A program made the translations under genes and the position numbers. Below the pieces are notes generated by a model. That model was not told where the DNA came from, did no database searches, and saw nothing but the letters and a program-made list of their open reading frames with translations. A DNA stretch of 64,000 nucleotides from Verrucomicrobiales bacterium (GTDB taxonomy: Bacteria > Verrucomicrobiota > Verrucomicrobiia > Limisphaerales > CAIMTB01): positions 1 to 64,000 of the forward strand of contig JAEUHG010000074.1 of assembly GCA_016795425.1 (NCBI GenBank). The letters are read 5' to 3'. Position 1 is the stretch's first letter; each line of letters opens with the position of its first letter. Of this stretch, positions 2-14,382 are shown piece after piece.

Positions 2-3000
2 ACCCGGTGGACGACACTTCCCGCGGATCTGGATGCGTTGACCTTTTCGGTCGAGCCGGCGGTTCTTGGAAGTGGCTACGTGATCCTGGATTCAGGAGGC
101 GGACTTCAGTCGCGGTTGACGGGTGGCAGCACCTTGGTGCCCGTGCCTGTAGATACGTTGCCGGATGACCTTCGCACGCAAGTCACGACCAATGCGGCCG
201 TGCTCCTGGCGTATCGGTTTCACGGCACTCCCTACACCCTGCCGCTTCAAGTGGGTGCGGCCGATCCTGAATCGTCGATGGTGACCCTGGATCGGTTCCA
301 GCTCCTGGGTGACCTTGGTTCGAATCAGGCCGAGTTCACGCTCTCGGCCACGGCGAAGGTGAAGAATCCGAGGGGCGGATCCCTGGAGCTCCTTTCGGGG
401 GGTGTGGCCATGCAGGAATGGACCGCGACGGACGGGTGGCGACTTCGTTTCGAGGACGGGAAATTCTGGGCTGATTTCGAGAAGCCAGGAGAGTACCCGG
501 TACGGCTTCGCTTTGGTGCGGGCGTGGTCGTGAGCAATGGATGGAGTCGCGTGCGGTTTGACATCGCGTCCGCGGCCCTGGCACCGGTTCGATTGCGGGG
601 ATTGGCGGAAGGGACCGAGGTGGAGTTTCGCGACGCGGCGCGCCCGGAGCGAACGCAACGCGAGTACGCGAGTCATCTGCCCGCGCACGGACGAGTTCAG
701 TTGGGCTGGCGGCCGGCGGTGCCGGAGACCGAGGGTCGCCTCTTCTACTCGGCGGAAGTAGCGACCTTGGTATCGGTCAGTCCGGGTTTGCTGCGCCAGA
801 CTTCGCATCTTCAGGTGAAAGTGATGCAGGGTGAATTGTCGGCAATGACACTGGATCTGGAAGGTGAGGGTGAGATTACTCGGGTTTTGGGTCCGCAGGT
901 GCTGGCGTGGTCTGTGGACCCGGGCACGGCGGGCGGGTCGCGGCGGTTGATGGTCCGGTTCAACCAACCTCAACGGGATCGGACGACCGTTCAAGTGCAG
1001 TGGCAGAGGCCGCTGGGAGCGTTTCCGCAAACCTTCTCCATCCTCCGTATTCAACCCGTGGAAGCGGCGCGTTTGAACGGCTGGGTGCGTATTGTCAACG
1101 AGGGCGCGGTGCGATTGGAAGTCGTGGAAGCCCTCGGCTTGTCCCAGATCTCACCGGAACAATTCGAACCTGCGGATGTGCCTCGGGACTTGCTGACCAC
1201 CCAAGCCACCCAGGTGTTTGCCTATCGATTTTCCGGCGCTGGCCACCGGCTTCGGGTGCAGGCCGACAACATTCTGCCCGAGCTCGCGGTGTCGGAGGTA
1301 CTGGTGTATCGCCTCGGGGAATCGGAGCTTTCGATCGACGCCGAATTCGAGATCGAGGTACGCGAGGCGCCGCTGCGGGATCTGACGGTAAGTCTGCCGA
1401 AAGGTTACTCTGTTGCCCGGGTCCAAGCGGCGGGATTAGCGGATTACTTCGTGAGCGAGACGGCAGGTGACGCTTTGGCGAAGGTGCGCTTGGTTTATAC
1501 CGCGCCGGTGCAGGGGCGGCAGGTGGTTTCCATGAGACTGGAACGGAACCAGTCCTTCACAGGAGATCGCTGGGTGTTGCCGCGGTTGGACGTGGACAAG
1601 GCGAAGTCCGTGCGTGGCCACGTGGGAGTGGCCGTCGAGGCTGGCTTTCGCGTGACCCCGGGCGTCACTTCCGGCCTGACCGAGGTGTCGACGGCCTTCT
1701 TCCCGAAGAAACTGGCGGGACTCCAGTACGCGTTGCGGATCAGCGAACCGAATTGGGAAGTCACCTTGGGTGTGGAGCGCCTGGCGCAGTCGATACAGGC
1801 CGATACCTTCCATCTGTTCTCGGTCGGGGAAGGCATCGCCTACGGCAGCAGTCTGATCAATTACGCGGTATCCGGAGCGCCAGTGGGATTGCTGCGCATC
1901 GAGTTATCCGGCGAATACTTCAATGTCGAGTTCACCGGCAAAAACATCCGCGGCTGGCAGAAGACGGAGCGCGGTTACGAGGTGCAACTCCACAGTCCGG
2001 TGTCCGGTGGGTACGCGTTGCTGGCGACCTATGAGCGACCCTTCAAGACCAGCGGCGAGACGCTGACATTTACCGGCGCGCGGCCCTTGGACGCCCAATC
2101 CGAGCAGGGTTACTCGCTGGCGGTGAGCACCTACCAGTTTCAGGTGCAACCCGTGAATGTTTCGGGGTCGCTGACGGCGTTGGAGTCGGGCGAGGTCCCG
2201 GCGGAGTACCGACTGTTCTTCGATGCCCCGATCCTGGCGGCCTATCGGTATCTCTCTCGGCCCTTCAACCTGCAACTGGCGCTGACGCCGTTGGCCCAAG
2301 GGGCCATGGTGAGCCAGGTCGTGGACCGGGCGGCACTGTCGACGCGAATCTCCGAGGAAGGGCAGGTGGTCACCGAGGCCCGGTATTTCGTGAAGAACAA
2401 GGGGGTGCCTCATCTGCGCCTTCGACTGCCCGAAGGGTCGGAACTATGGTCGGTGGTGGTGGACGGCAAGCCGGTGGTGCCGGTCAAGGATGCCACCTCC
2501 AACCTGATCCCGCTTCCGGGGCGCGCCGATCCGGAAGTGGTGATGGAAGTGGTGGTGAAGATGGCCAGCAAGGCCGCCAACGCGGGCCGCCTCACCGTGC
2601 ACGCACCCATTGTGGCGGCGCCGGTTCTGTTGGCGGAATGGCGCCTCGACCCCGCGGACGGTCGGCGACTCATGTTCCGGGGTGGAACCTTGGCGCCGGC
2701 CGGCGAAAACGCAGACCCCACTGGATTTGGTGCCGTGGGGCGGTTGCTCCACGCGGAGCATCGCCGGCAGGCCGGTGGGTTTCTGGCCCTGATGGGCGCC
2801 GGAATGATGCTGATGGTTTGGGTCTGGTCCGGAATCCGATCCGGGGGCGGGCGACGGTTTGGTCTCCGCCATGGGTTGGCCGGCGCCATGGGTGCGGCCG
2901 CATTGGTTGCGGCGATCGCGGGATTCATGGGATTGAGGCAAATGGTGGAGGGTACGGCGGCCTACGCGGAGCCAGGCCTCCGATTTGTGGCGCCCATTCA

Positions 3001-6000
3001 ACAGGCGGACGCCGAGTGGACCCTGCGATTGGCCAACGTGACGAGGGACGCATCCGGGATGTCCTGGGTGTCGTGGTTGCTCGCTCTCGGCATGGCTGGG
3101 ACAATTTGGGTGGCCTCATGGCTGACCGAACGGTCGTGGCTGCGGAGAACGGGAGTGGCGTTCGGTTGGACAGTACTGTTCTTCGCCGCACTACAGGCCG
3201 AGCAAGGGGGCACGGTTTTCGTCGACCTATGGATGGTCCTACTGGTGTTGCGTCTGGTTCTGCCCGCCTGGATCCGTTGGTGGCAGGGCACACCCATGCC
3301 CACAGCCACTGGCGCCACTCCATCGACGTCCGCGGCAATGGCGACATGGCTGGTGGCTGGCTTTCTGATGGGCGCAGTCGGACTGGAAACCGAGGCCAGG
3401 GCCCAGGCTTCGACGTCTTGGAAGCCGGCCGACTCCGAGCATTCCCTTCCTGAACTCGTGAGCCATGAGGTGGAGGTTCGGGACGACGCCATCCGGGGTA
3501 CGGCGACGGTGCGGTGGGTGGCGCGGAAAGGGCAGGTGCTGCCGTTGTTGATCGAGCCAGGGATTCTGACGCGATCCGGGCATCCGACGAACGCCGCGCG
3601 ATGGGTGACATTACGACGCGACGGTCGTTCCGTTCGGGCGCTGGTGGCGGAATCGGATCAGACCCTCGAATTCGCCCTGGACTATCAGACACGCGTGGCG
3701 CAGCGCGGGATGGATCGGGGGCTGGCCTTGCCTGTGACGCCTGGTTTGGTGCATCGCGCCCGCCTGACCTTGATCGGACTCGACGTTGAAGTGTTCTCGC
3801 CGCAAGCGATCGGGGTGCGGCGTGAGACCTCGGGTTCCAACACCGTGGCGAACCTGGTCCTGGCGCCGACGCCCGAGCCTTGGGTGAGTTGGCGGCCGCG
3901 GACCCGAGACACGCGGGGGGAGAAGCCGGTGTATTTTGCGGAATGGACCCACGGCTTTGTGCCGGGGCCGGGAGTGGTGGAGGGCCTGCACGAACTCCAA
4001 TGGCGGCCTGCCCAGGGAGAGGTGGAGGAGATGCAATTCACGGTGCCTGCCGGTGTCACGATCACGGACGTGACTGCGGTGGGCCTAGGGCAGTGGCGCT
4101 TTGATCCCGACGCCCGCCGCCTGCGGGTGCAATGGACGTCCGCGCAAGCCAAGTCGTTGACGCTGAGAATTCGTTCCCAAGTCACGGCGGGCGCATTACC
4201 CGCCGAATTGAGCGTGGAGGTTCCGCAATTGATCGGCGCATCAGGGCAGGTGGGATTGGTCGGCGTTGCCACCGGAGCCGAGGTGCAGTTGGACGAGGCT
4301 CGGGCGGAAGGCTACGCCGCCATCAACCTCGAGGATTTCCCGACTGCGGTATTGGAACCATTCCGGGCGCTCACGACCGGTCTGACCGTGCGCCGTGCCT
4401 TTCGTTATTCGGACCCCACCGGCCGACTCACCCTCAAAGCATCGGCCGTCGAGCCGGATGTGCGGGTGGAGTCGAGCCAGACCTTGTCCCTGGGCGAGGA
4501 CAGGACCGTTTTGGCGGTGCAATGGAATGTGGAGATTCTGCGCGCGGGCATCTTTCGCATGAGTTTCATTCTGCCGACGGGGCTGGATGTGGAGTCGGTG
4601 AGTGGCCCCGCCTTGAGTCACTGGACCGAACTTAAGTCGGACGGAACTCGCATCGTGACTCTGCACCTGCGTGGAAAGACGACTGGCAGTCAGGATCTGA
4701 ATCTCACTTTGGCCGGGCCTGGGGTACGGTCGACCAACGGGTGGGTGGTGCCGCGACTGGCACTGCGCGAAGCGACGAAGCACAGAGGCCAGTTGATGGT
4801 GGTGCCCGAGCAGGGACTTCGACTGCAAACCGTCGAACGCAACTCCGTCACGCCGTTGGATCCGGCGCAGCTCGGGGTGCGACAGAAGGGCGTGCTGGCG
4901 TTTCGTCTGCTCCAGGATCCCTGGTCCGTGACCCTGAATTTGGAGCGCGTGGATGCCTGGGTGCAGGTGACCAGCTTGCAGCATGCGACCTTTGCGGATG
5001 CGCAGGTGAAGGTCGTCGGGAATCTTCAGTACGAAATCGAGAACACCGGCGTCAAAGCGCTCATGGTGGCCCTGCCGGCGACCGCCGAGAACGTGCGGTT
5101 CACGGGGGAACAAGTGTCGGATTTTGTTGCCGCGACGGCCACCGGTCCCGGTGGGGTTCGAGATTGGGACGTCAAGCTCGGTCGACGCATGCTGGGCCGC
5201 TATGTGCTTCAGGTGACCTATACCTTGCCGGTCGTTGCCGGTGCGGACCAGGCGGTGTTGGACGGCATTCAAGCGCGTGGAGTGAACCTGCAGCGTGGAT
5301 TTGTGACCTTGCAGGCCGGAGGGCGGCTGCAAGTGCGAGCCGAAGCGACGGACGCATTGTCGGCAACGGACTGGCAGGTGATACCGAGGGCGCTTCAGCA
5401 GGGGCTCGAGGCGGTAGCGGCGAGTCATGCGTTTCGTATGACCGATCCGGCCTTTCGGCTGCCGGTGCGCTTGGAACGACACGAAGCGACGCGCCTGCTG
5501 CCGGCCCGTGTGAAGAGCGTTGGCCTGACGACGGTGGTTTCGGATGAAGGCGTGGCATTGACCCAGGTGCGGTTGCAGATGGTGCCGGGCGACAAGAGAC
5601 TCTTGCATCTCACCCTGCCTGCCGGGTCCCGGTTCTGGTTTGCCTTTGTGAATCAGGGCAGCGTTTGGCCCTGGCAGAGCACCAATCAGATCCTGCTGCC
5701 CATCGACCAGACCGCGCGACGGGGCGAGGACACGACGGTGGAGTTCTATTACTCGGGAAAGGTGGGGAATGGGGGGCGGCGGACCTTGGACCTGGACCTG
5801 ATGGCGCCGCGGCTGGACCTGCCGTTGGAAGACATCCAGTGGGCGGTGTATCTCGGGGAGCGGTGGGCCTTGTCGGATTGGGGGGGAGCGCTGCAATTGA
5901 AGGATCCGGGGATGGAGGTGGTGCCGGTGGCGGTGGATCTCCAGACCTACGTGCAGAAGGAATCGCAATCGCGGCAGGAAAAGACCCGCGAGGCGGAGCA

Positions 6001-6598
6001 GTTTCTCAACCTGGCCAACTCCCTCCTGGCCCAGGGCGATCCTCAGGAGGCACGCCGCGCGTTTCAGCAAGCCTACGGATTGTCGCAGCATGATCAGGCC
6101 TTCAACGAAGATGCGCGCGTGCAACTGAACAACCTTCGGACTCAACAGGCGCTGGTAGGATTGAATTTCCGCGACGCCCGCGTGATGGGCGAAGGGGCGG
6201 GCGGAGGCGGCGCGACCGCTGGTGCGCCGGCGCCCCGCGGGTTGCTGGAAAACCGGGCACCCACCTATACGCAGGAGGAAGCCCGCCAGTGGCTTGACCG
6301 CAAAGGCGCGGACGAAAACGCCGCCCAGGCGCGGTTGGCGGAGCGGATTATTCAACAGCAGGACGCGGCCCTGGCGAGTCCGGCGGCGATTCGCGCCGCC
6401 ATTCCTGAACAAGGCCGGAAATTCCTCTTCACGCGGCCATTGGAAGTGAATCCATGGGCGGAACTGAGGTTGAACATCGAGGCGAAGTCCACCGCGGATG
6501 TCTCGTGGGGGATGCGGTGGGGATTGGTGTTGGGAGTGTTTCTACTGGCCTTGGTGTTCCTCGCCGTGGGTCGGTGGGGACGCCGATCCGAGGCTTGA
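2..6598 (+). CDS. Giant internally duplicated membrane-anchored protein, 5' partial
   Basis: The reading frame is open to the left edge, so the true start lies upstream; a TTG at 38 is only the first possible start codon seen. About 2,198 residues are visible. Counted from position 38, beta-rich modules fill residues 1-900, about six hydrophobic segments follow (912-933, 945-967, 1007-1029, 1041-1054, 1058-1079, 1100-1119), then a second beta-rich block (1125-1930), a short TPR-like helical stretch near 1975-2040, and a C-terminal membrane segment at about 2156-2177. The end of the first block (about 735-830) aligns by eye with the end of the second (about 1797-1890), so the protein looks like two fused copies. 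I do not recognise a named domain. A cell-envelope role is likely from the membrane anchors. It lies upstream of the GTPase gene set but 53 bases separate it from the next start, so shared transcription is possible but unproven. Confidence 0.8.
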   Translation, partial: TRWTTLPADLDALTFSVEPAVLGSGYVILDSGGGLQSRLTGGSTLVPVPVDTLPDDLRTQVTTNAAVLLAYRFHGTPYTLPLQVGAADPESSMVTLDRFQLLGDLGSNQAEFTLSATAKVKNPRGGSLELLSGGVAMQEWTATDGWRLRFEDGKFWADFEKPGEYPVRLRFGAGVVVSNGWSRVRFDIASAALAPVRLRGLAEGTEVEFRDAARPERTQREYASHLPAHGRVQLGWRPAVPETEGRLFYSAEVATLVSVSPGLLRQTSHLQVKVMQGELSAMTLDLEGEGEITRVLGPQVLAWSVDPGTAGGSRRLMVRFNQPQRDRTTVQVQWQRPLGAFPQTFSILRIQPVEAARLNGWVRIVNEGAVRLEVVEALGLSQISPEQFEPADVPRDLLTTQATQVFAYRFSGAGHRLRVQADNILPELAVSEVLVYRLGESELSIDAEFEIEVREAPLRDLTVSLPKGYSVARVQAAGLADYFVSETAGDALAKVRLVYTAPVQGRQVVSMRLERNQSFTGDRWVLPRLDVDKAKSVRGHVGVAVEAGFRVTPGVTSGLTEVSTAFFPKKLAGLQYALRISEPNWEVTLGVERLAQSIQADTFHLFSVGEGIAYGSSLINYAVSGAPVGLLRIELSGEYFNVEFTGKNIRGWQKTERGYEVQLHSPVSGGYALLATYERPFKTSGETLTFTGARPLDAQSEQGYSLAVSTYQFQVQPVNVSGSLTALESGEVPAEYRLFFDAPILAAYRYLSRPFNLQLALTPLAQGAMVSQVVDRAALSTRISEEGQVVTEARYFVKNKGVPHLRLRLPEGSELWSVVVDGKPVVPVKDATSNLIPLPGRADPEVVMEVVVKMASKAANAGRLTVHAPIVAAPVLLAEWRLDPADGRRLMFRGGTLAPAGENADPTGFGAVGRLLHAEHRRQAGGFLALMGAGMMLMVWVWSGIRSGGGRRFGLRHGLAGAMGAAALVAAIAGFMGLRQMVEGTAAYAEPGLRFVAPIQQADAEWTLRLANVTRDASGMSWVSWLLALGMAGTIWVASWLTERSWLRRTGVAFGWTVLFFAALQAEQGGTVFVDLWMVLLVLRLVLPAWIRWWQGTPMPTATGATPSTSAAMATWLVAGFLMGAVGLETEARAQASTSWKPADSEHSLPELVSHEVEVRDDAIRGTATVRWVARKGQVLPLLIEPGILTRSGHPTNAARWVTLRRDGRSVRALVAESDQTLEFALDYQTRVAQRGMDRGLALPVTPGLVHRARLTLIGLDVEVFSPQAIGVRRETSGSNTVANLVLAPTPEPWVSWRPRTRDTRGEKPVYFAEWTHGFVPGPGVVEGLHELQWRPAQGEVEEMQFTVPAGVTITDVTAVGLGQWRFDPDARRLRVQWTSAQAKSLTLRIRSQVTAGALPAELSVEVPQLIGASGQVGLVGVATGAEVQLDEARAEGYAAINLEDFPTAVLEPFRALTTGLTVRRAFRYSDPTGRLTLKASAVEPDVRVESSQTLSLGEDRTVLAVQWNVEILRAGIFRMSFILPTGLDVESVSGPALSHWTELKSDGTRIVTLHLRGKTTGSQDLNLTLAGPGVRSTNGWVVPRLALREATKHRGQLMVVPEQGLRLQTVERNSVTPLDPAQLGVRQKGVLAFRLLQDPWSVTLNLERVDAWVQVTSLQHATFADAQVKVVGNLQYEIENTGVKALMVALPATAENVRFTGEQVSDFVAATATGPGGVRDWDVKLGRRMLGRYVLQVTYTLPVVAGADQAVLDGIQARGVNLQRGFVTLQAGGRLQVRAEATDALSATDWQVIPRALQQGLEAVAASHAFRMTDPAFRLPVRLERHEATRLLPARVKSVGLTTVVSDEGVALTQVRLQMVPGDKRLLHLTLPAGSRFWFAFVNQGSVWPWQSTNQILLPIDQTARRGEDTTVEFYYSGKVGNGGRRTLDLDLMAPRLDLPLEDIQWAVYLGERWALSDWGGALQLKDPGMEVVPVAVDLQTYVQKESQSRQEKTREAEQFLNLANSLLAQGDPQEARRAFQQAYGLSQHDQAFNEDARVQLNNLRTQQALVGLNFRDARVMGEGAGGGGATAGAPAPRGLLENRAPTYTQEEARQWLDRKGADENAAQARLAERIIQQQDAALASPAAIRAAIPEQGRKFLFTRPLEVNPWAELRLNIEAKSTADVSWGMRWGLVLGVFLLALVFLAVGRWGRRSEA

Positions 6599-6651: not shown

Positions 6652-7311
6652 ATGGGCAAGCCAGCCGTTTCTCAAGGAGGACGTCCTCGCCCGAGCCGGT
6701 CCGGGGCGAAGACCAGCACACCGGCGTTGAAGCAACCGCGAACCATGAGTGCATCCAATTCGTCGTCGGCCTCCGGGGCCACCAACCGAACCGATGAAGC
6801 CAACAACGTCGACAAGATCCGCGACATCTTGTTCGGCAATCAGATGAAGGATTACGACGCGAAGTTTGCGCGTCTGGAGGAGCGGCTCAAGGCGGAGGCC
6901 GAAGAATTGCGTGACGACCTCAAGCGCCGGTTGGCATCGCTGGAGGCCTATGTGAAGGGAGAACTGGGCGCCCTGTCCGAACAGCTTCAGACCGAAAAGG
7001 ACGAACGCCTCCAGTCGGACAAGGGTCTTTCCGTGGAACTCAAGGACCACGTCAAAGCCTGGGAAAAGAAGAACCAGCAGTTCGAGGCCCAGAACGACAA
7101 GGCCCATCGGGAGCTCCGCGAGCAGTTGCTCGGGGAAGCCAATCGGTTGGGCGAAGAGATCCGGCAAAAAACCAAGGACCTCGCCGCCTCGCTGGCCCGC
7201 GAATCGCAGGATCTGCGCGGAGCCCTCACGCCGAAGCAGCAGCTGGCCGAGATCCTCGCCCAAATGGCCCTCCAGCTGAAGGGCGACGCCCCAGAGAAGC
7301 GCGAGCGGTAA
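6652..7311 (+). CDS. Coiled-coil protein preceding OmpA/Ras-like GTPase genes
   Basis: This gene encodes about 219 residues, mostly charged heptad-like helix from the segment KIRDILFGNQ onward, rich in Glu, Lys, Leu and Gln, with no signal peptide or membrane segment. A cytoplasmic coiled coil is therefore likely. The start at 6652 has an AAGGGA nine bases upstream. A second in-frame ATG at 6745 begins MSASNSS and is equally reasonable, because the extra residues are basic and low in complexity. The gene ends 24 bases before the OmpA-domain gene, so the two are probably co-transcribed. No enzyme motif is visible. An adaptor or scaffold for the neighbouring OmpA protein and GTPase is a guess from position only. 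Confidence 0.75.
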   Translation: MGKPAVSQGGRPRPSRSGAKTSTPALKQPRTMSASNSSSASGATNRTDEANNVDKIRDILFGNQMKDYDAKFARLEERLKAEAEELRDDLKRRLASLEAYVKGELGALSEQLQTEKDERLQSDKGLSVELKDHVKAWEKKNQQFEAQNDKAHRELREQLLGEANRLGEEIRQKTKDLAASLARESQDLRGALTPKQQLAEILAQMALQLKGDAPEKRER

Positions 7312-7335
7312 TCACCCGGGAACCGGGTTCCGTCC

Positions 7336-9090
7336 ATGCTCGAGTCCCGCCCTCAACCGTCGGAGGTCCCCTCCGCGGGCGGCGATCCGCGCCAGGCCGA
7401 GGCGATGGACGAGTTGCGACGGTTGCTGCTCGGCCGGCAGCAGGAGCGATGGTCCGACCTGGCCCGGCGCGTCGAAGACCCGTCCTTGCGGGCCGAGGAC
7501 GTGAGCCGCGTCCTGCCGCAAGCCGTGGCGCGGTGTTCGAAACAGGACGGACGTCTTTCTCAGGCGCTCGCCCCGGCAGTGGAATCCGCTTTGCGCACCT
7601 CGATTCGTCGGGATCCGCGCGTCCTGGCCAACGCCATCTTTCCCATTATCGGCCCGGCGATCCGACAGGCCGTCTCGGATTCGCTTCGCCGCCTGGTCGA
7701 GACCCTGAATCGCGCCATGGAATTGGGTCTGTCGTGGCGCGGCCTGGCATGGCGGTGGGAAGCCTGGCGGACGGGACGTCCTTTGGGAGAAGTTGTCCTG
7801 GCGCATTCCCTGATCTTCCGGGTGGAGCAGGTCTTTCTCATTCATCGGCCCACCGGCCTTTTGTTGGTTGATGTCGCCGCCCCGGGGTTGGTGGCGGAGA
7901 ATCAGGACGTCATTTCCGCCATGCTCACCGCGGTGCGTGACTTCGTGAAGGATGCCTTCCGGACCACCCCGGGCGATGAGTTGTCGACGGCGCGGGTTGG
8001 GGACCTCGATTTATGGGTGGAGAGCGGGCCGCACGCGATCCTGGCGGCGGCGATCCGTGGTCAGGCGCCGGTGGAGTATCGTGAGAAGCTCCGGCGAACC
8101 CTGGAGGCGATTCACCGGGATGAAGCCTCCACGCTGGCCGGCTTTTCCGGGGACTCCGCCCCCCTGGCATTCCTGCAATCGAATCTGGAGGAATGCCTGG
8201 AAGTGCGGCATCGGACCGGGGCGGAAGGAGGAGGCCGGTCATGGAAACTCCTGGCCGTTAGCTCGGTGGCGATCCTCGTCCTCGTGGCATGGCTGGGCAA
8301 CACGTGGTGGCAGCACCGCAGGGAGGAGGCTTTCCTGGACCGATTGCGCACCGAACCGGGAATCCTGGTCACCGAGGCACGACGGAGTGGTGGGCGGCTT
8401 TGGGTGTCCGGATTGCGCGACCCCATGGCGGCCGATCCAGCGAGCCTGGCTTGGTCGGCTCGCTTGTCGCCCGACGAGGACGTCGTGTTCCGGTGGGAAC
8501 CTTACCTGGCGCTGACACCGGATCTGACCCTGCGCCGGGCGCGAGCGCGCTTGAATCCGCCGTCCGGTGTGAATCTCGATTTGCAGGGAGGCGCCCTGAT
8601 CCTGGAAGGAGTGGGATCACCGGAGTGGAATCGGGAGGCGGCGCGGTTGGGAGCATCGGTGCCTGGGGTGGACCGAGTGGATGTCTCGGGTTTGTCGCAT
8701 GACGGCGCGGCGCAGGTGCAGCGGCTGGTGGAAACCCTTCAACGCCAGACGCTTTACTTTGACACCGCCCAGACGGTGTTGGCCGGGCAGGTGCCGACCG
8801 TGAACGCCGTGGTGGAGGCGGCGCGGGCGTTGGAGAGTCTGGTGGGGCGCCTGGGGAAGAAGGCGTCGCTGGTGGTGGTGGGACACGCCGACCGGTCAGG
8901 GCGCGAGGAGCTGAACACGCGCCTCAGCCAGCAGCGCGCGGAAGCGGTGCGGTCGAGGCTGGTGGCGGCGGGATTGTCTCCTGAGTTTGTGCAAGGCGTG
9001 GGTGTGGGTTCCTCAGCGCCGTCGCGTCCGCAGTCGCCCACCGATGCGGCCAACCGCCGGGTGACATTCGAGGTGCGGTGGGTTCGGTGA
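7336..9090 (+). CDS. OmpA-domain protein with single internal membrane segment
   Basis: The 584-residue product has a large N-terminal helical domain (about 1-300), a single membrane helix at about 301-324, a BON-like region (about 340-460) and a C-terminal OmpA/MotB domain from about 470. The OmpA signature is seen in YFDTAQTVL followed by VVVGHADRSG and a run of Arg/Gln-rich helix. OmpA-like domains bind peptidoglycan. With only one membrane helix, the likely topology is a cytoplasmic N-terminal half and a periplasmic OmpA half that grips the wall, unlike a classical outer-membrane OmpA barrel. It sits between the coiled-coil gene and the Ras-like GTPase gene. The cytoplasmic half could contact the GTPase; this is inference. 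The domain assignment is firm, the partner is not. Confidence 0.85.
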   Translation: MLESRPQPSEVPSAGGDPRQAEAMDELRRLLLGRQQERWSDLARRVEDPSLRAEDVSRVLPQAVARCSKQDGRLSQALAPAVESALRTSIRRDPRVLANAIFPIIGPAIRQAVSDSLRRLVETLNRAMELGLSWRGLAWRWEAWRTGRPLGEVVLAHSLIFRVEQVFLIHRPTGLLLVDVAAPGLVAENQDVISAMLTAVRDFVKDAFRTTPGDELSTARVGDLDLWVESGPHAILAAAIRGQAPVEYREKLRRTLEAIHRDEASTLAGFSGDSAPLAFLQSNLEECLEVRHRTGAEGGGRSWKLLAVSSVAILVLVAWLGNTWWQHRREEAFLDRLRTEPGILVTEARRSGGRLWVSGLRDPMAADPASLAWSARLSPDEDVVFRWEPYLALTPDLTLRRARARLNPPSGVNLDLQGGALILEGVGSPEWNREAARLGASVPGVDRVDVSGLSHDGAAQVQRLVETLQRQTLYFDTAQTVLAGQVPTVNAVVEAARALESLVGRLGKKASLVVVGHADRSGREELNTRLSQQRAEAVRSRLVAAGLSPEFVQGVGVGSSAPSRPQSPTDAANRRVTFEVRWVR

Positions 9091-9160
9091 AACGGGGAGG
9101 CGCCGACGGGTGTCGAACTGACCGAGAGACATGCAACGCTATCAGTGGGAAGGGAATGCG

Positions 9161-9703
9161 ATGATCCAACTCAAGATCTGTCTGCTGGGCTCGTTCGCCG
9201 TGGGGAAGACCAGCCTGGTAGCCCGTTTTTCGCGGGGGATATTTTCGGACAAGTATTTGGCGACCTTGGGAGTCAAGATTGACCGCAAACGAATCCAGGT
9301 GGACGGGACAGCGGTAACTCTCATTTTATGGGACATGGCGGGGGAGGATGAGTTCGCCAAGGTGCAGATGTCTTATTTGACGGGTGCGGCGGGTTACTTG
9401 CTCGTGTTTGACGGGACTCGAAAGCTGACATTCGACCAGGCATTGATCCTGGAGGAGCGGGCGCGCACCACGGTGGGGGCCCTGCCTTTTGTCGTATTGG
9501 CGAACAAAGCCGATCTGGAGGATCAATGGGAGGTGAGCGCGGGTGACATCAAAGCATTGACGGCGCGGAAGTGGTTGGTTCAGAAAACGAGCGCTAAGAC
9601 GGGGGAGGACGTCGATGGCGCGTTCGAAAAATTAGTGAGGGGTATTCTGAGTCGACGTGGGAGTTCCGCGGGGACCCAGGCTCAGGATTCCGCCGAAAGT
9701 TGA
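9161..9703 (+). CDS. Ras-superfamily small GTPase (Rab-like, prokaryotic)
   Basis: The product is a 180-residue soluble GTPase. Motifs in order are the P-loop GSFAVGKTS (G10-S18), the switch I threonine T35 in YLATLGV, the G3 motif WDMAGED (D58-D63), NKAD at 115-118 and SAK at 144-146. This is the complete Ras-type set, with a Rab-like core. The position matching Ras Gln61 is Glu62, so intrinsic hydrolysis may be altered. An upstream ATG at 9131 is in frame, but 9161 is preferred because GGAAGGGA ends six bases before it and the P-loop then falls at the usual distance from the N terminus. There is no C-terminal prenylation-type cysteine. It lies between OmpA-domain and histidine-kinase genes, suggesting a signalling role similar in kind to MglA-like prokaryotic GTPases; the target is unknown. 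Confidence 0.93.
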   Translation: MIQLKICLLGSFAVGKTSLVARFSRGIFSDKYLATLGVKIDRKRIQVDGTAVTLILWDMAGEDEFAKVQMSYLTGAAGYLLVFDGTRKLTFDQALILEERARTTVGALPFVVLANKADLEDQWEVSAGDIKALTARKWLVQKTSAKTGEDVDGAFEKLVRGILSRRGSSAGTQAQDSAES

Positions 9704-9726
9704 CGCAACGTGGGTAACCGACGCGG

Positions 9727-10917
9727 ATGAATCAGGAGTTGTGCCAGGTATTGGTCCAAAGCGAGGGCATCTTGGTGCTCGTGCGCTTGGAGGGGAATCG
9801 GTTTCGCGTGGCGGGGCATCCGCCAGGTTGGGCCGCGGTGTTGGCGCATGGGGGCCTGCACGCGGATCAGGAGGTGGATGCCGCCGAAGTCTTCGTCTTT
9901 CTCGAACTCTTTCTTCGCGAAGCTGCCATCGTCTGGGAAGCCAATGACGGGAGTAGCGTCACGTCCGAGCCATGGACGGAGACATTGGCGACGCGTGAGG
10001 AGCTGGCATTCACGGCCACCGCGCGAAAGATCGGCGGCAAGGAGATACTGCTGGTGCGGGGCCTTGGCGTGGACTTCGACGAACGCTACAAAGTGCTGCG
10101 CAAGGCACGTGAGTTGGCGTTGTCCCACGAGAAGCTACTCAAGGAAACCAGTGAGAAGGAAACCCTGCTCCACTGCCTGGTCCACGACATTGCGGGTCCG
10201 TTGACCACGGTCGCCAATTGCTTCCAGTTGCTGGAAGCCGAGCAGGGCCTGAGCGAGGCCGGACGCGGCCTGGTCCGGTTGGGTCGGTCGGCCACCCACC
10301 GGCAGCACACCATGCTGCGTGAGATGCTGGACCTCTTTGCCGCCGAGTTGAGCACGCTGGATCAATTCTCCGTTGATGTTGCGACGGCTCCCGAGGTGCT
10401 GGATTGCGCCCATGTCGTTCTCCGATCGTTGCGTCACAGTTTCGACATGAAAGGGGTGTCCTTTCAGTTGCTCCTTTCACCGCCCGCCCTTTCGGTGTGG
10501 AAAGTGGTGGGGCAACGCGAAAAGTTGGAGCGCATCCTGTACAACCTGCTTGATAACGCCCTGCGCCACGCGCCTCCCGGCACAACGGTGACCTTGCGGT
10601 TGGAGGAAGAGGAACGCGCGATCCGTGTTTCGGTGGTGGATCAGGGGCCCGGGGTGGAGGCGGAGATGTCGAACCGACTTTTTGGGCGCTTCCAGCAGGG
10701 TGAACGCACCAAGGGCAAGGTAGGCCTGGGGCTTTTCTTCTGCCGCACCATGATCAAGCACTGGAGCGGGGAGATCGGCCACGAACCCGATCCACGCGGC
10801 GGCACGTGTTTCTGGTTTCGCCTTTCCAAGCCTGACTTTGCGTCGCCCAGGGAAGAAACCCGGGGTGATGCTGCGGTGCCCGGCGAGGGGCCGGGGGACA
10901 CTCCGGGGAACCCGTAG
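9727..10917 (+). CDS. Soluble sensor histidine kinase
   Basis: This 396-residue kinase has no membrane segment. An N-terminal uncharacterised input region (about 1-130) leads by a short coiled coil to the dimerisation/phosphoacceptor helix with H153 in VHDIAGPLT. The HATPase domain follows, with the N box LLDNALRHA (N277), the G1 motif DQGPGV and the G2 motif KVGLGLFFC. All residues needed for autophosphorylation appear present. It starts 23 bases after the GTPase gene ends, so it is probably the last member of that operon. No response regulator is adjacent, making it an orphan within this window. Co-location suggests that its input or output is tied to the GTPase or OmpA protein, which is inference. 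The C-terminal tail after about residue 375 is low in complexity and carries no domain I recognise. Confidence 0.92.
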   Translation: MNQELCQVLVQSEGILVLVRLEGNRFRVAGHPPGWAAVLAHGGLHADQEVDAAEVFVFLELFLREAAIVWEANDGSSVTSEPWTETLATREELAFTATARKIGGKEILLVRGLGVDFDERYKVLRKARELALSHEKLLKETSEKETLLHCLVHDIAGPLTTVANCFQLLEAEQGLSEAGRGLVRLGRSATHRQHTMLREMLDLFAAELSTLDQFSVDVATAPEVLDCAHVVLRSLRHSFDMKGVSFQLLLSPPALSVWKVVGQREKLERILYNLLDNALRHAPPGTTVTLRLEEEERAIRVSVVDQGPGVEAEMSNRLFGRFQQGERTKGKVGLGLFFCRTMIKHWSGEIGHEPDPRGGTCFWFRLSKPDFASPREETRGDAAVPGEGPGDTPGNP

Positions 10918-10938: not shown

Positions 10939-12456
10939 TCACGGCGCGATCATGCGCGCCAGCAGGTTGCGGGTGATTTGTTGAACACGACGGTCGGGCC
11001 CTTGCGGCGCGGTGTAGACTTTGGGGCGCAGGTAACCCGGGGGCTCGCTGAGCCCGTCTCCCCACCATATCGTGGATGCATTGAAGACCAGATTCCGTTT
11101 GGGACCTGGATAGAGGGTCGCCGTAAAGGTGCCCCCATTCGGTTCACCGGGCGCAGACTGGGTGGGACCTGTCGCCACAACCTCGAGCCCTGGAATCGGC
11201 GCTGGATCACCGTGCCATTCCCATCCCACCAGGCCTGGAATACCGTCGCCGCGTCGCAGGCCTGTTCCCTCGAACAACCAATGATCCGGCCGTGCGCAGA
11301 TCCAGTCGGCGCCACCCGTCACGGGTCCGGTGCTGTGCGCACCCACCAGTTCGTTGGCATAGGGGCGTTCGTGGGGAAGCGAGGCCATGGAAACAAAGTC
11401 GCGGGTGCCTCCGGGGGGGCCATAAACGCCGACGCGCTCAAAGGCACGCGCGCCTCGGCCGCGGGCATCCGCCGACAGTGCGATACGGCCGCAGCAGGTA
11501 TTGCCCGAGAGAAAGGCGACGTTGAGTCCGCCGCCGATGGCGCGCTGGACGTTGCGGAACATCTCGAGGGTCCAGTATTCGTCGTGTCCGACGGACAGGA
11601 ACCCACGGGCCCGGAGCAGACCCGGGGCATTCGCGTGGGTGTCGAGATTCGACTGGTAAGTGACGTCGTAGCCTTCCGACTCCAGCCAGTAGGCTGTCGG
11701 ATACTCCCACAGAAGGAACTCACCGGAACCTTGCGACAGCGGGGCGTCAAAGATCTGGCAGTAACGGCCATAGGGACGGTTGAAGGAGACCTGGACTCCG
11801 GGGCCCCAGTACCACTCGTTCTGGCCGTCGTCGTAGAGGGAGAAATGATCGGGCCATCGGTTGTAGGCTTGCCAAGTGGTGTCGCTGCACTGGAAGAGCA
11901 GATCAGCGCGGCGATCGTCGCGGACAATAAAGACGACGTAGCTCTGGGTCTGTTCGCGGAGCTCGGTCAGCTTCCCCAGGTAGACGCCACTCAGCCAATC
12001 GGCGGGAATCCGGAGGGAATGCGAGACCTCCCATTGGCAGTCCCGGACGCGTTTGGGACCTACCGGAGGATCGGACTGCGGGCGGCCGCGGAGGGGGCCG
12101 AAGGCCGCTACCTGGCGGGCCCCCTGTCCGCCATAATAACCAAGGCGATAGAGATCGAGGGTGAAGTCCGCGGCGGGTTGGGTGCTGACGTGGATATCGA
12201 TGGAGTCGCCGGCGCGGGCGCTGGTTTGGGAGCAGTAACCTTCGATCCAGGGGCAGCGCCAGCGGGTGGCGGGATCGACGCGGGTTTTCGAGAGTTGCCA
12301 GTCGCGGGTACCGGGGCGGGCGTTTTCGCGTCGGACTGGGTTATCCGTGCGTGAGGTGGTGTGGCAACCGGTGCCAGGAAAGGCGGATACGGCAGCCGCA
12401 GCGGCGAGGCCTTTGAGCAGGTGTCGGCGGTCGATCGGGGGCGTGTGATGAGGCAT
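10939..12456 (-). CDS. N,N-dimethylformamidase large-subunit-like lipoprotein
   Basis: The 505-residue protein begins with a twin-arginine signal (DRRHLLKGLAAAAA) ending in a lipobox-like FPGTGC, so it is probably Tat-exported and possibly lipidated. The rest matches the N,N-dimethylformamidase beta-subunit-like C-terminal domain family, with the characteristic stretches LYRLGYYGG, SVGHDEYWT and FLSGNTCCGR. In true DMFase this subunit carries a mononuclear iron site and works with a small subunit. No small-subunit gene is seen here, so activity on dimethylformamide is not implied, and many homologues of unknown substrate exist. It is convergent with the histidine kinase gene (21 bases apart) and is 69 bases downstream of the FG-GAP gene on the same strand. 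The family call is good; the substrate is unknown. Confidence 0.85.
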   Translation of the reverse strand: MPHHTPPIDRRHLLKGLAAAAAVSAFPGTGCHTTSRTDNPVRRENARPGTRDWQLSKTRVDPATRWRCPWIEGYCSQTSARAGDSIDIHVSTQPAADFTLDLYRLGYYGGQGARQVAAFGPLRGRPQSDPPVGPKRVRDCQWEVSHSLRIPADWLSGVYLGKLTELREQTQSYVVFIVRDDRRADLLFQCSDTTWQAYNRWPDHFSLYDDGQNEWYWGPGVQVSFNRPYGRYCQIFDAPLSQGSGEFLLWEYPTAYWLESEGYDVTYQSNLDTHANAPGLLRARGFLSVGHDEYWTLEMFRNVQRAIGGGLNVAFLSGNTCCGRIALSADARGRGARAFERVGVYGPPGGTRDFVSMASLPHERPYANELVGAHSTGPVTGGADWICARPDHWLFEGTGLRRGDGIPGLVGWEWHGDPAPIPGLEVVATGPTQSAPGEPNGGTFTATLYPGPKRNLVFNASTIWWGDGLSEPPGYLRPKVYTAPQGPDRRVQQITRNLLARMIAP

Positions 12457-12525
12457 GAGAGGGCGGCTCCGGCAATCGAAGGAATGGGTCGACCGGCTTG
12501 GGGTTGAATCGCAAACCGGGCGCTC

Positions 12526-14382
12526 TCAGCGTTCCCGGATCGCGTGGGTGGCATTGATCGGAAGGCCTTCCAGTTTCTGAGTTCCGCCGTTGGGCCACAG
12601 AATCTCGACGGCGTCGATCGTCTCCGCCTTGCCGAGGCCGAAAGTGACCGGGAGTTCGGATTGGGAAAGGTAGCTGCGGGTGGGCATGACCTGGCGGTTT
12701 TGGGTCAGTCCGCCGGCGGTCACTTTGACCCAGGCACCGATGGCATCGCGATTGGATCCCTTGCCCGTGAGGCGGAACCGGACCCAGTGATGGTTCAGGT
12801 TTTGGTCGTTGCGGAGCAATCGGGGCGGGCCGGACGCCTGGAACAGGAGGACGTCGAGATCGCCGTCGCCGTCGATGTCAGCAAACGCGGATCCGCGACC
12901 GACAATGGGCTGGAACAGGTCGGTGCCGGCCTTGCTGGTATCGATCTCGACGAACCCGCCGTCATGGGCACCGGCATTCCAGAAGAGTTGGGCGGGCTGT
13001 CGATAGGATTGGCTCTGCTGAATCTTGCTGATTTCTTCTTCGAGGTGGCCGTTGGCGGTGAGGACGTCGAGCCAGCCGTCGAGGTCGTAGTCGAAGAAGA
13101 ACAGCCCGAATTTCAGCAATCGACGGCTGGCGGGGCCGATTCCCTCGGCGATGGCTTCATCCGTGAAGATATCGCCGGATTTTGAGGCCACGTACATTGC
13201 GGTCATCTCGTTGGCGAAGTTTCCGATGCCGATGGCCATGGAATCATCATTGCGATGGCGCGCGACATCGATGCCCATGGCGCCGCGGGCATTGCCCATG
13301 GAGTCGAAGGCGACGCCCATTGAGGCCCCGGACTCGGCAAAGGTGCCGTCGTGGCGGTTGGTGAACACCATGTTCTGCACCGTGTCATTGGCCACCACCA
13401 AGTCGATCCAGCCGTCGCCATTCAGGTCGGCCGGCGCGATGCCGAGGGATTTGGCCGCTGGAACCCCCGTCGCTGGGTTCTTGATTTGAACGCCTGCCGT
13501 TGAGGAGACATCGCTGAACCGTCCGCCCCCTTCATTGCGGTAAAGGAAGGGGAAGGCGCCCTGGAAATTCATGGGCGGGCCATAGGCGCGGTTGTGGCCG
13601 TCCAGTGAGAAGCCCACCTGGAAATCGATCTCCCGCGACCATTTCACGTAATTCACCACGAAGAGGTCGAGGTCGCCGTCCCGATCCACATCGAGAAAGG
13701 CGGCGCCGCTGCTCCAGGCATCGGGGCTGCCTTCGACGCCGGCGGCGCGGGTGACATCCTGGAACTTGCCGTTGCCCAGGTTGCGGAAGAGGCGGTTGGC
13801 GCCGACGCCGGTGATAAAGACATCAACGCGTCCATCGTTGTCGAAATCCCCACAGGCGACGCCCATGCCATAGGTCGTGACGTCGAGACCGGACCCGGCG
13901 GTCACGTCGCGGAAGCGGCCATTGCCCTCGTTCTGGTAGAGGGCGTGGGTAGGCATCGGTGAGGGTGCGTTCTTGCTCCAGGGCCAGGGCGCTCCATTGA
14001 CAAAGAGAATATCCTGGTCGCCATCGCCGTCGTAATCGAGGAAAGCGCCGCCGCCGCCCATGGTTTCCGGCAGAAGCTTCTCGCCCTCCGCGCCATTGAA
14101 GTGGCTGAAGCGGATGCCGGCGACGGTGGTGATGTCGGTAAAGGCGACGGTCGGCGCCTGGGCGAGGGCCGAAGGAGCCGGGGTTGGCGCAGCGAGTTCA
14201 GTGACGCGTTGCGGTGGGGGAGGTGCTTTGCGTCCGAGCCAGAGCCACAATCCCCCGACCACCACGATACCCGCGACGGCGACCGCGATGGACCAACGAG
14301 TGGCTCGGCCGATGACCGAATCGTCGTAACGTGCGGTATCGTCCGAATGGTTGTCCGGTGAAGGTTGCGAATGGGAAGCCAT
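12526..14382 (-). CDS. CRTAC1-like FG-GAP/VCBS repeat protein with UnbV domain
   Basis: The 618-residue product has an N-terminal membrane anchor (about 30-50) and then a seven-bladed-type integrin-like propeller. Calcium-binding loops are clear in DYDGDGDQD, DFDNDGRVD, DVDRDGDLD, DLNGDGWID, DYDLDGWLD and DIDGDGDLD. The C terminus is an ASPIC/UnbV domain, seen in NHHWVRFRLTGKGSNRDAIG and ILWPNGG. Members are surface or periplasmic proteins expanded in Verrucomicrobiota and Planctomycetota, with no settled biochemical role. The N-terminal anchor faces a proline-rich linker, so the propeller should be outside the cytoplasm. It is divergent from msrP across 98 bases, which must hold both promoters, and is probably co-transcribed with the DMFase-like gene downstream. 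Confidence 0.93.
   Translation of the reverse strand: MASHSQPSPDNHSDDTARYDDSVIGRATRWSIAVAVAGIVVVGGLWLWLGRKAPPPPQRVTELAAPTPAPSALAQAPTVAFTDITTVAGIRFSHFNGAEGEKLLPETMGGGGAFLDYDGDGDQDILFVNGAPWPWSKNAPSPMPTHALYQNEGNGRFRDVTAGSGLDVTTYGMGVACGDFDNDGRVDVFITGVGANRLFRNLGNGKFQDVTRAAGVEGSPDAWSSGAAFLDVDRDGDLDLFVVNYVKWSREIDFQVGFSLDGHNRAYGPPMNFQGAFPFLYRNEGGGRFSDVSSTAGVQIKNPATGVPAAKSLGIAPADLNGDGWIDLVVANDTVQNMVFTNRHDGTFAESGASMGVAFDSMGNARGAMGIDVARHRNDDSMAIGIGNFANEMTAMYVASKSGDIFTDEAIAEGIGPASRRLLKFGLFFFDYDLDGWLDVLTANGHLEEEISKIQQSQSYRQPAQLFWNAGAHDGGFVEIDTSKAGTDLFQPIVGRGSAFADIDGDGDLDVLLFQASGPPRLLRNDQNLNHHWVRFRLTGKGSNRDAIGAWVKVTAGGLTQNRQVMPTRSYLSQSELPVTFGLGKAETIDAVEILWPNGGTQKLEGLPINATHAIRER

Follow-up and report, generated by a model that had tools for sequence, protein, structure and literature searches.

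What connects the four genes that follow one another on the plus strand near the start of the window, that is, the whole stretch of 64,000 nucleotides analyzed here from a Verrucomicrobiales bacterium (contig JAEUHG010000074.1)? The ORFs leave 24, 70, and 23 bases between them, in agreement with the sequence-only reading. The first gene (6652..7311, plus strand) encodes a coiled-coil protein of 219 aa with a conserved motif, DKIRDILFGNQM, near its start; the assignment comes from the ORF reading and an HMM of its homologues, and in Pfam the product has weak coiled-coil-like matches alone. The second (7336..9090, plus strand) encodes a transmembrane OmpA protein of 584 aa, and the fourth (9727..10917, plus strand) encodes a soluble histidine kinase of 396 aa, both assigned with Pfam, AF2 models, and Foldseek. 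Between them lies the gene of a Ras/Rab-like GTPase of the Rup type (9161..9703, plus strand), assigned with Pfam, motifs, and a tree. There is an in-frame ATG upstream at 9131, but the start at 9161 is favored because the homologues begin with MIQ/MLQKKIC. The upstream ORF of 2186 aa (38-6598) has no family in Pfam beyond a sub-threshold TPR match. It was considered as a part of the set and left out, since its homologue is absent near the relatives' copies. Downstream of the set, the minus strand encodes a Tat-signal protein with a DMFA2_C domain and an FG-GAP/ASPIC-UnbV protein (10939-14382; Pfam).

Has this combination been described before? The sequence-only reading knew of no such pathway, which was a mistake. 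Wuichet and Sogaard-Andersen described it in 2014 (PMC4316618) as the Group 1 Rup neighborhood. Its genes encode a coiled-coil protein, a protein whose unknown domain often precedes a TM segment and an OmpA domain, a GTPase, and an output protein whose N-terminal region is conserved. These are the same four parts as in the window. According to the same paper, the Rup GTPase lacks the G3 glutamine, and the usual output protein is a histidine kinase or a GGDEF/EAL fusion, with an invariant glutamine in its N-terminal region. This invariance was an observation on the 2014 sample rather than a criterion of the group, and the glutamine was speculated to be a catalytic residue acting in trans. The window has a GTPase without the G3 Gln, a coiled-coil neighbor, an N-domain-TM-OmpA neighbor, and a histidine kinase output, and its set almost certainly belongs to the Group 1 Rup GTPase system, as a member from Verrucomicrobiota. 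One new point is that Verrucomicrobiota carry a set already outlined in 2014; Verrucomicrobia are absent from the list of Rup phyla in the text of PMC4316618. By the account given there, no Rup protein had been characterized as of 2014. Searches of the open-licence literature turned up no studies of the Group 1 Rup system after 2014, and it appears to be still uncharacterized experimentally.

Prokaryotic Ras-like GTPases such as MglA, the example named in the sequence-only reading, are known as spatial switches. The GTPase matches Ras in Pfam (2e-33) and has the motifs GSFAVGKT (G1), WDMAGED (G3), and NKAD (G4). In the tree, it groups with GTPases of Rup-type loci, apart from the MglA-like GTPases of roadblock loci (93/88, just under the starred threshold), although the branches are long, the support is moderate, and the rows compared are the Rup-type loci of this analysis and those MglA-like GTPases. 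The window GTPase stands beside those of two relatives, L022 and L026 (100/98). The solved structures that it matches best are Rab proteins. An MglA-type GTPase was rejected on the tree and the motifs, and MglA was not the right relative for comparison. The Gln after the G3 glycine is absent in all 32 complete GTPases (WDMAGED in the window, with Glu at the position of Ras Gln61). The position of Ras Gly12 is occupied by Phe in the window GTPase and by Gly in none of the 32 sequences. Since a residue other than Gly at this position of Ras suggests slow intrinsic hydrolysis, slow GTP hydrolysis is suggested here too, and the window GTPase is probably, judging from these residues, a slow switch dependent on a partner.

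Which protein may be the partner? The OmpA protein consists of a cytoplasmic helical region (residues 18-131), a longin/roadblock-like domain (about 150-285), one TM helix within 302-339, two BON-like repeats, and an OmpA-like domain (494-578; Pfam OmpA 9e-11 for residues 494-574). Its N-domain is 40-52% conserved across phyla, and nothing significant was found for it in Pfam and PDB sequence searches. In the AF2 model (23 sequences, mean pLDDT 77.5), long helices are followed by a domain with the order b-b-a-b-b-b-a(-a) at about 150-285 (pLDDT about 55-91), a long helix with the TM segment, the BON-like repeats, and the OmpA domain. The order b-b-a-b-b-b-a fits longin domains and, with a preceding helix, roadblock domains, the class of folds to which MglB and further partners of small GTPases belong. 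When the model was compared with a viral fold library, OmpA proteins came first, and of the four best matches that followed, three were synaptobrevin/v-SNARE proteins, which carry longin domains (probability 0.96, 0.93, and 0.89); these three matches may be inflated by the long helices of the model. When the full model was compared with the PDB, the 50 matches listed were almost exclusively OmpA-domain proteins, plus one dual-BON protein and a few secretion-system proteins. The Robl_LC7 profile aligned co-linearly with the widened N-domain family over 80 columns, a length reached by none of 150 column shuffles (maximum 44) and a score reached by 3 of the 150. However, the hhalign probability was about 1%, so homology is not established by this alignment. 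Together with the AF2 topology and the v-SNARE fold matches, it places most of the longin/roadblock-like domain at 7780..8160 (plus strand). On the model, a resemblance of this domain to the longin/roadblock fold is likely. By the same modeling, the domain of Group 1 Rup systems called unknown in 2014 likely has a longin/roadblock topology. Longin and roadblock domains are recurrent partners of small GTPases (PMC10933270, PMC9481161, and PMC3521125). If the reading is true, it would supply the missing GTPase partner.

Two known systems bear a likeness to this arrangement. The MglA-MglB polarity module also pairs a small GTPase with a roadblock/longin-fold partner, as is suspected in the window, but the window GTPase falls outside the MglA-like rows of the tree, and its putative partner forms part of a transmembrane OmpA protein, whereas MglB is a free protein. 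The actinobacterial conservon (CvnA-D) also has a histidine kinase and a Ras-like GTPase in one set, together with an MglB-type roadblock protein and CvnC, and the window set may likewise have a roadblock-class partner. However, the window kinase is soluble, whereas CvnA is membrane-bound with TM helices and HAMP; the window GTPase is not MglA-like; and the OmpA and coiled-coil proteins are additional. No recognizable roadblock protein or CvnC was found in the window set, and Pfam gave no Robl_LC7 match in the set or in the whole source genome; the domain of the OmpA protein resembles a roadblock domain in topology alone. The coiled-coil protein has a link of its own to the OmpA protein. A short motif, [LIV]R.[LI]L[FL]G.[QE], occurs close to the start of both proteins (6652-6850 for the coiled coil and 7402-7440 for the OmpA protein) and of their homologues. 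In a profile comparison, the initial segments of the coiled coil (DKIRDILFGNQM) and of the OmpA protein (DELRRLLLGRQQ) scored 21.7, while 100 shuffles scored at most 18.1. From its sequence, the common motif hints at the same binding mode or at a pairing of the two helices.

The kinase consists of a PAS-like N-domain (residues 1-112), a helix, a HisKA-type dimerization region, and HATPase_c. HATPase_c was matched in Pfam at 8e-25 and HisKA below the threshold; residues 1-112 matched no Pfam family. A TM segment and HAMP were not found in the sequence, by Pfam, or in the AF2 model. In this model, the strands and helices of the N-domain come in the PAS order and are followed by a long helix, and the best Foldseek matches, over the full length, are LOV/PAS histidine kinases. 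Related PAS-like N-domains head quite different proteins: HisKA_3 kinases with or without GAF (L021, L023, and L025), SpoIIE phosphatases (L032 and L033, and by sequence also L030), class III cyclases (L090, L096, and L097), and a sigma-54 activator (L099). In cyanobacteria, the output N-domain stands alone between the GTPase and the kinase. Since related N-domains occur on HisKA, HisKA_3, SpoIIE, cyclase, and sigma-54 proteins, the output behaves as a plug-in. The SpoIIE, cyclase, and sigma-54 outputs go beyond those described in the 2014 text consulted. When the three types of output N-domain were compared profile to profile, no significant match was obtained; they are taken together because of their shared position, similar layout, and Gln motif. 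The sequence-only reading had stated that the kinase has no partner regulator. This is true of the window locus, but a relative (L023) has an adjacent LuxR-type response regulator and several kinases of a divergent subfamily carry a receiver domain of their own.

How might the four products work together? OmpA-like domains bind peptidoglycan. In the favored mechanism, which I rate at about an even chance and whose direction I infer, a signal passes from the envelope via the OmpA-longin protein to the GTPase and then to the kinase. The OmpA domain would hold peptidoglycan, with the single TM helix crossing the inner membrane, and wall strain or remodeling would move the cytoplasmic half of the protein. 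The longin/roadblock-fold domain would bind the GTPase and set its nucleotide state, with the coiled-coil protein as a scaffold. The PAS-like N-domain of the output protein would read the GTPase state and the signaling helix would carry it to the effector, which would be a HisKA kinase phosphorylating a response regulator encoded elsewhere in the case of the window, and a phosphatase, cyclase, or sigma-54 activator in relatives. A more specific version, in which the domain is a longin/roadblock-fold GTPase regulator (GAP or GEF) tethered to the wall and the PAS-like plug-in reads the switch without the trans-glutamine mechanism of 2014, is offered tentatively, at somewhat less than even chance. 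If true, a peptidoglycan-anchored GAP or GEF would set a Ras-like switch, and bacteria would sense their envelope in an unusual way, through a small GTPase linked to the cell wall.

The signal may also flow the other way. The PAS-like kinase would then sense a cytoplasmic cue and control the GTPase, and the GTPase, the coiled coil, and the OmpA protein would act as the output, which might, for instance, place an envelope machine at a site on the wall. PAS folds often bind small ligands, and a PAS fold was matched in the window kinase, which has no adjacent regulator. In addition, conservons combine a kinase with a Ras-like GTPase but have no response regulator, and PMC4316618 posits the GTPase as the output there. 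Against this, it is the fourth gene that is swapped for end-point effectors (phosphatases, cyclases, and a sigma-54 activator), while the coiled coil, the OmpA protein, and the GTPase are constant, and a LuxR regulator adjoins the kinase in one relative. I consider the reverse direction unlikely, at perhaps one chance in a few. For the favored mechanism, the joining of the OmpA protein, GTPase switch, and kinase into a module, as proposed in the sequence-only reading, is supported by the gene order in three phyla and the co-variation of the genes; the wall as the input and the kinase as the output are plausible.

Does the output N-domain itself complete the active site of the GTPase? Building on the speculation in PMC4316618, the N-domain would be a GTPase-activating partner giving the missing catalytic Gln in trans. 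The GTPases do lack the G3 Gln, and the output domain has a single near-invariant Gln, present in 29 of the 32 sequences, which span three sequence types. The exceptions are the window kinase (Arg125, codon at 10099..10101 on the plus strand, found by alignment) and those of L022 and L026, which also have Arg, with the GTPase and the kinase otherwise intact. These are three sister species of one genus, of which a fourth species (L024) keeps the Gln. In the AF2 model, this column falls within the helix that follows the PAS-like core, where conserved residues of signaling helices are commonly found. From the alignments, I infer that it corresponds to the Gln of the 2014 sequence logo. As a HisKA kinase with Arg at the putative conserved-Gln column, the window output would then differ from the Group 1 Rup outputs described in 2014. 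If the two columns are the same, the Arg in three species means that catalysis in trans by this Gln cannot be general, and the natural Gln-to-Arg change allows the proposed catalytic mechanism to be tested directly. Such a role for the output domain seems improbable.

Is the set common in other genomes? Homologues of the OmpA protein, full or partial, were found in six others among 58 related genomes and, in public genomes, in Verrucomicrobiales, three Rhodopila (Alphaproteobacteria), and the cyanobacterium Iningainema tapete. Apart from loci truncated by contig ends, almost every close homologue keeps the order coiled coil, OmpA protein, GTPase, and output, and the orientation is the same as well. 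The exceptions are the more distant loci L098-L101, where parts were not found. Verrucomicrobiota and Cyanobacteria share the order of the window, and Alphaproteobacteria have it with other outputs. The check proposed in the sequence-only reading, conservation of the gene order across phyla, came out in its favor: the order is not unique to this genome. In the window's phylum, 12 of 388 genomes have the N-domain of the OmpA protein, with five strong matches, the window's own among them. The figures are 39 of 339 for Cyanobacteria, with nine strong matches, and 8 of 289 for the class of Rhodopila, with three. With the HMM, the coiled coil was found first in the set in all three phyla. The pairwise distances of the coiled coil, the OmpA N-domain, and the GTPase are correlated over 30 loci (Spearman 0.80-0.85; none of 999 permutations as high). 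From these sequence comparisons, the distribution is patchy, yet the set travels as a unit. That four unrelated genes are adjacent by chance can be dismissed, given the same order in three phyla, the correlated distances, and the neighborhood survey published in PMC4316618.

Where the surroundings of the weaker cyanobacterial and alphaproteobacterial matches were examined, most of these matches belong to a divergent subfamily, in which the coiled coil, the N-domain protein, and the GTPase are again consecutive. This second triad was seen in L102, L104, L105, L106, L108, L113, and L115-L117. Where scanned, the triad is followed by kinases, several of them with PAS and fused receiver or Hpt domains. 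In L107, L111, and L112, which represent one verrucomicrobial family, the N-domain occurs in small proteins (open frames of 339-402 aa), and an adjacent GTPase was not found. In two alphaproteobacterial loci (L106:225-5105 and L110:6130-11630), the coiled-coil gene is flanked by two N-domain proteins.
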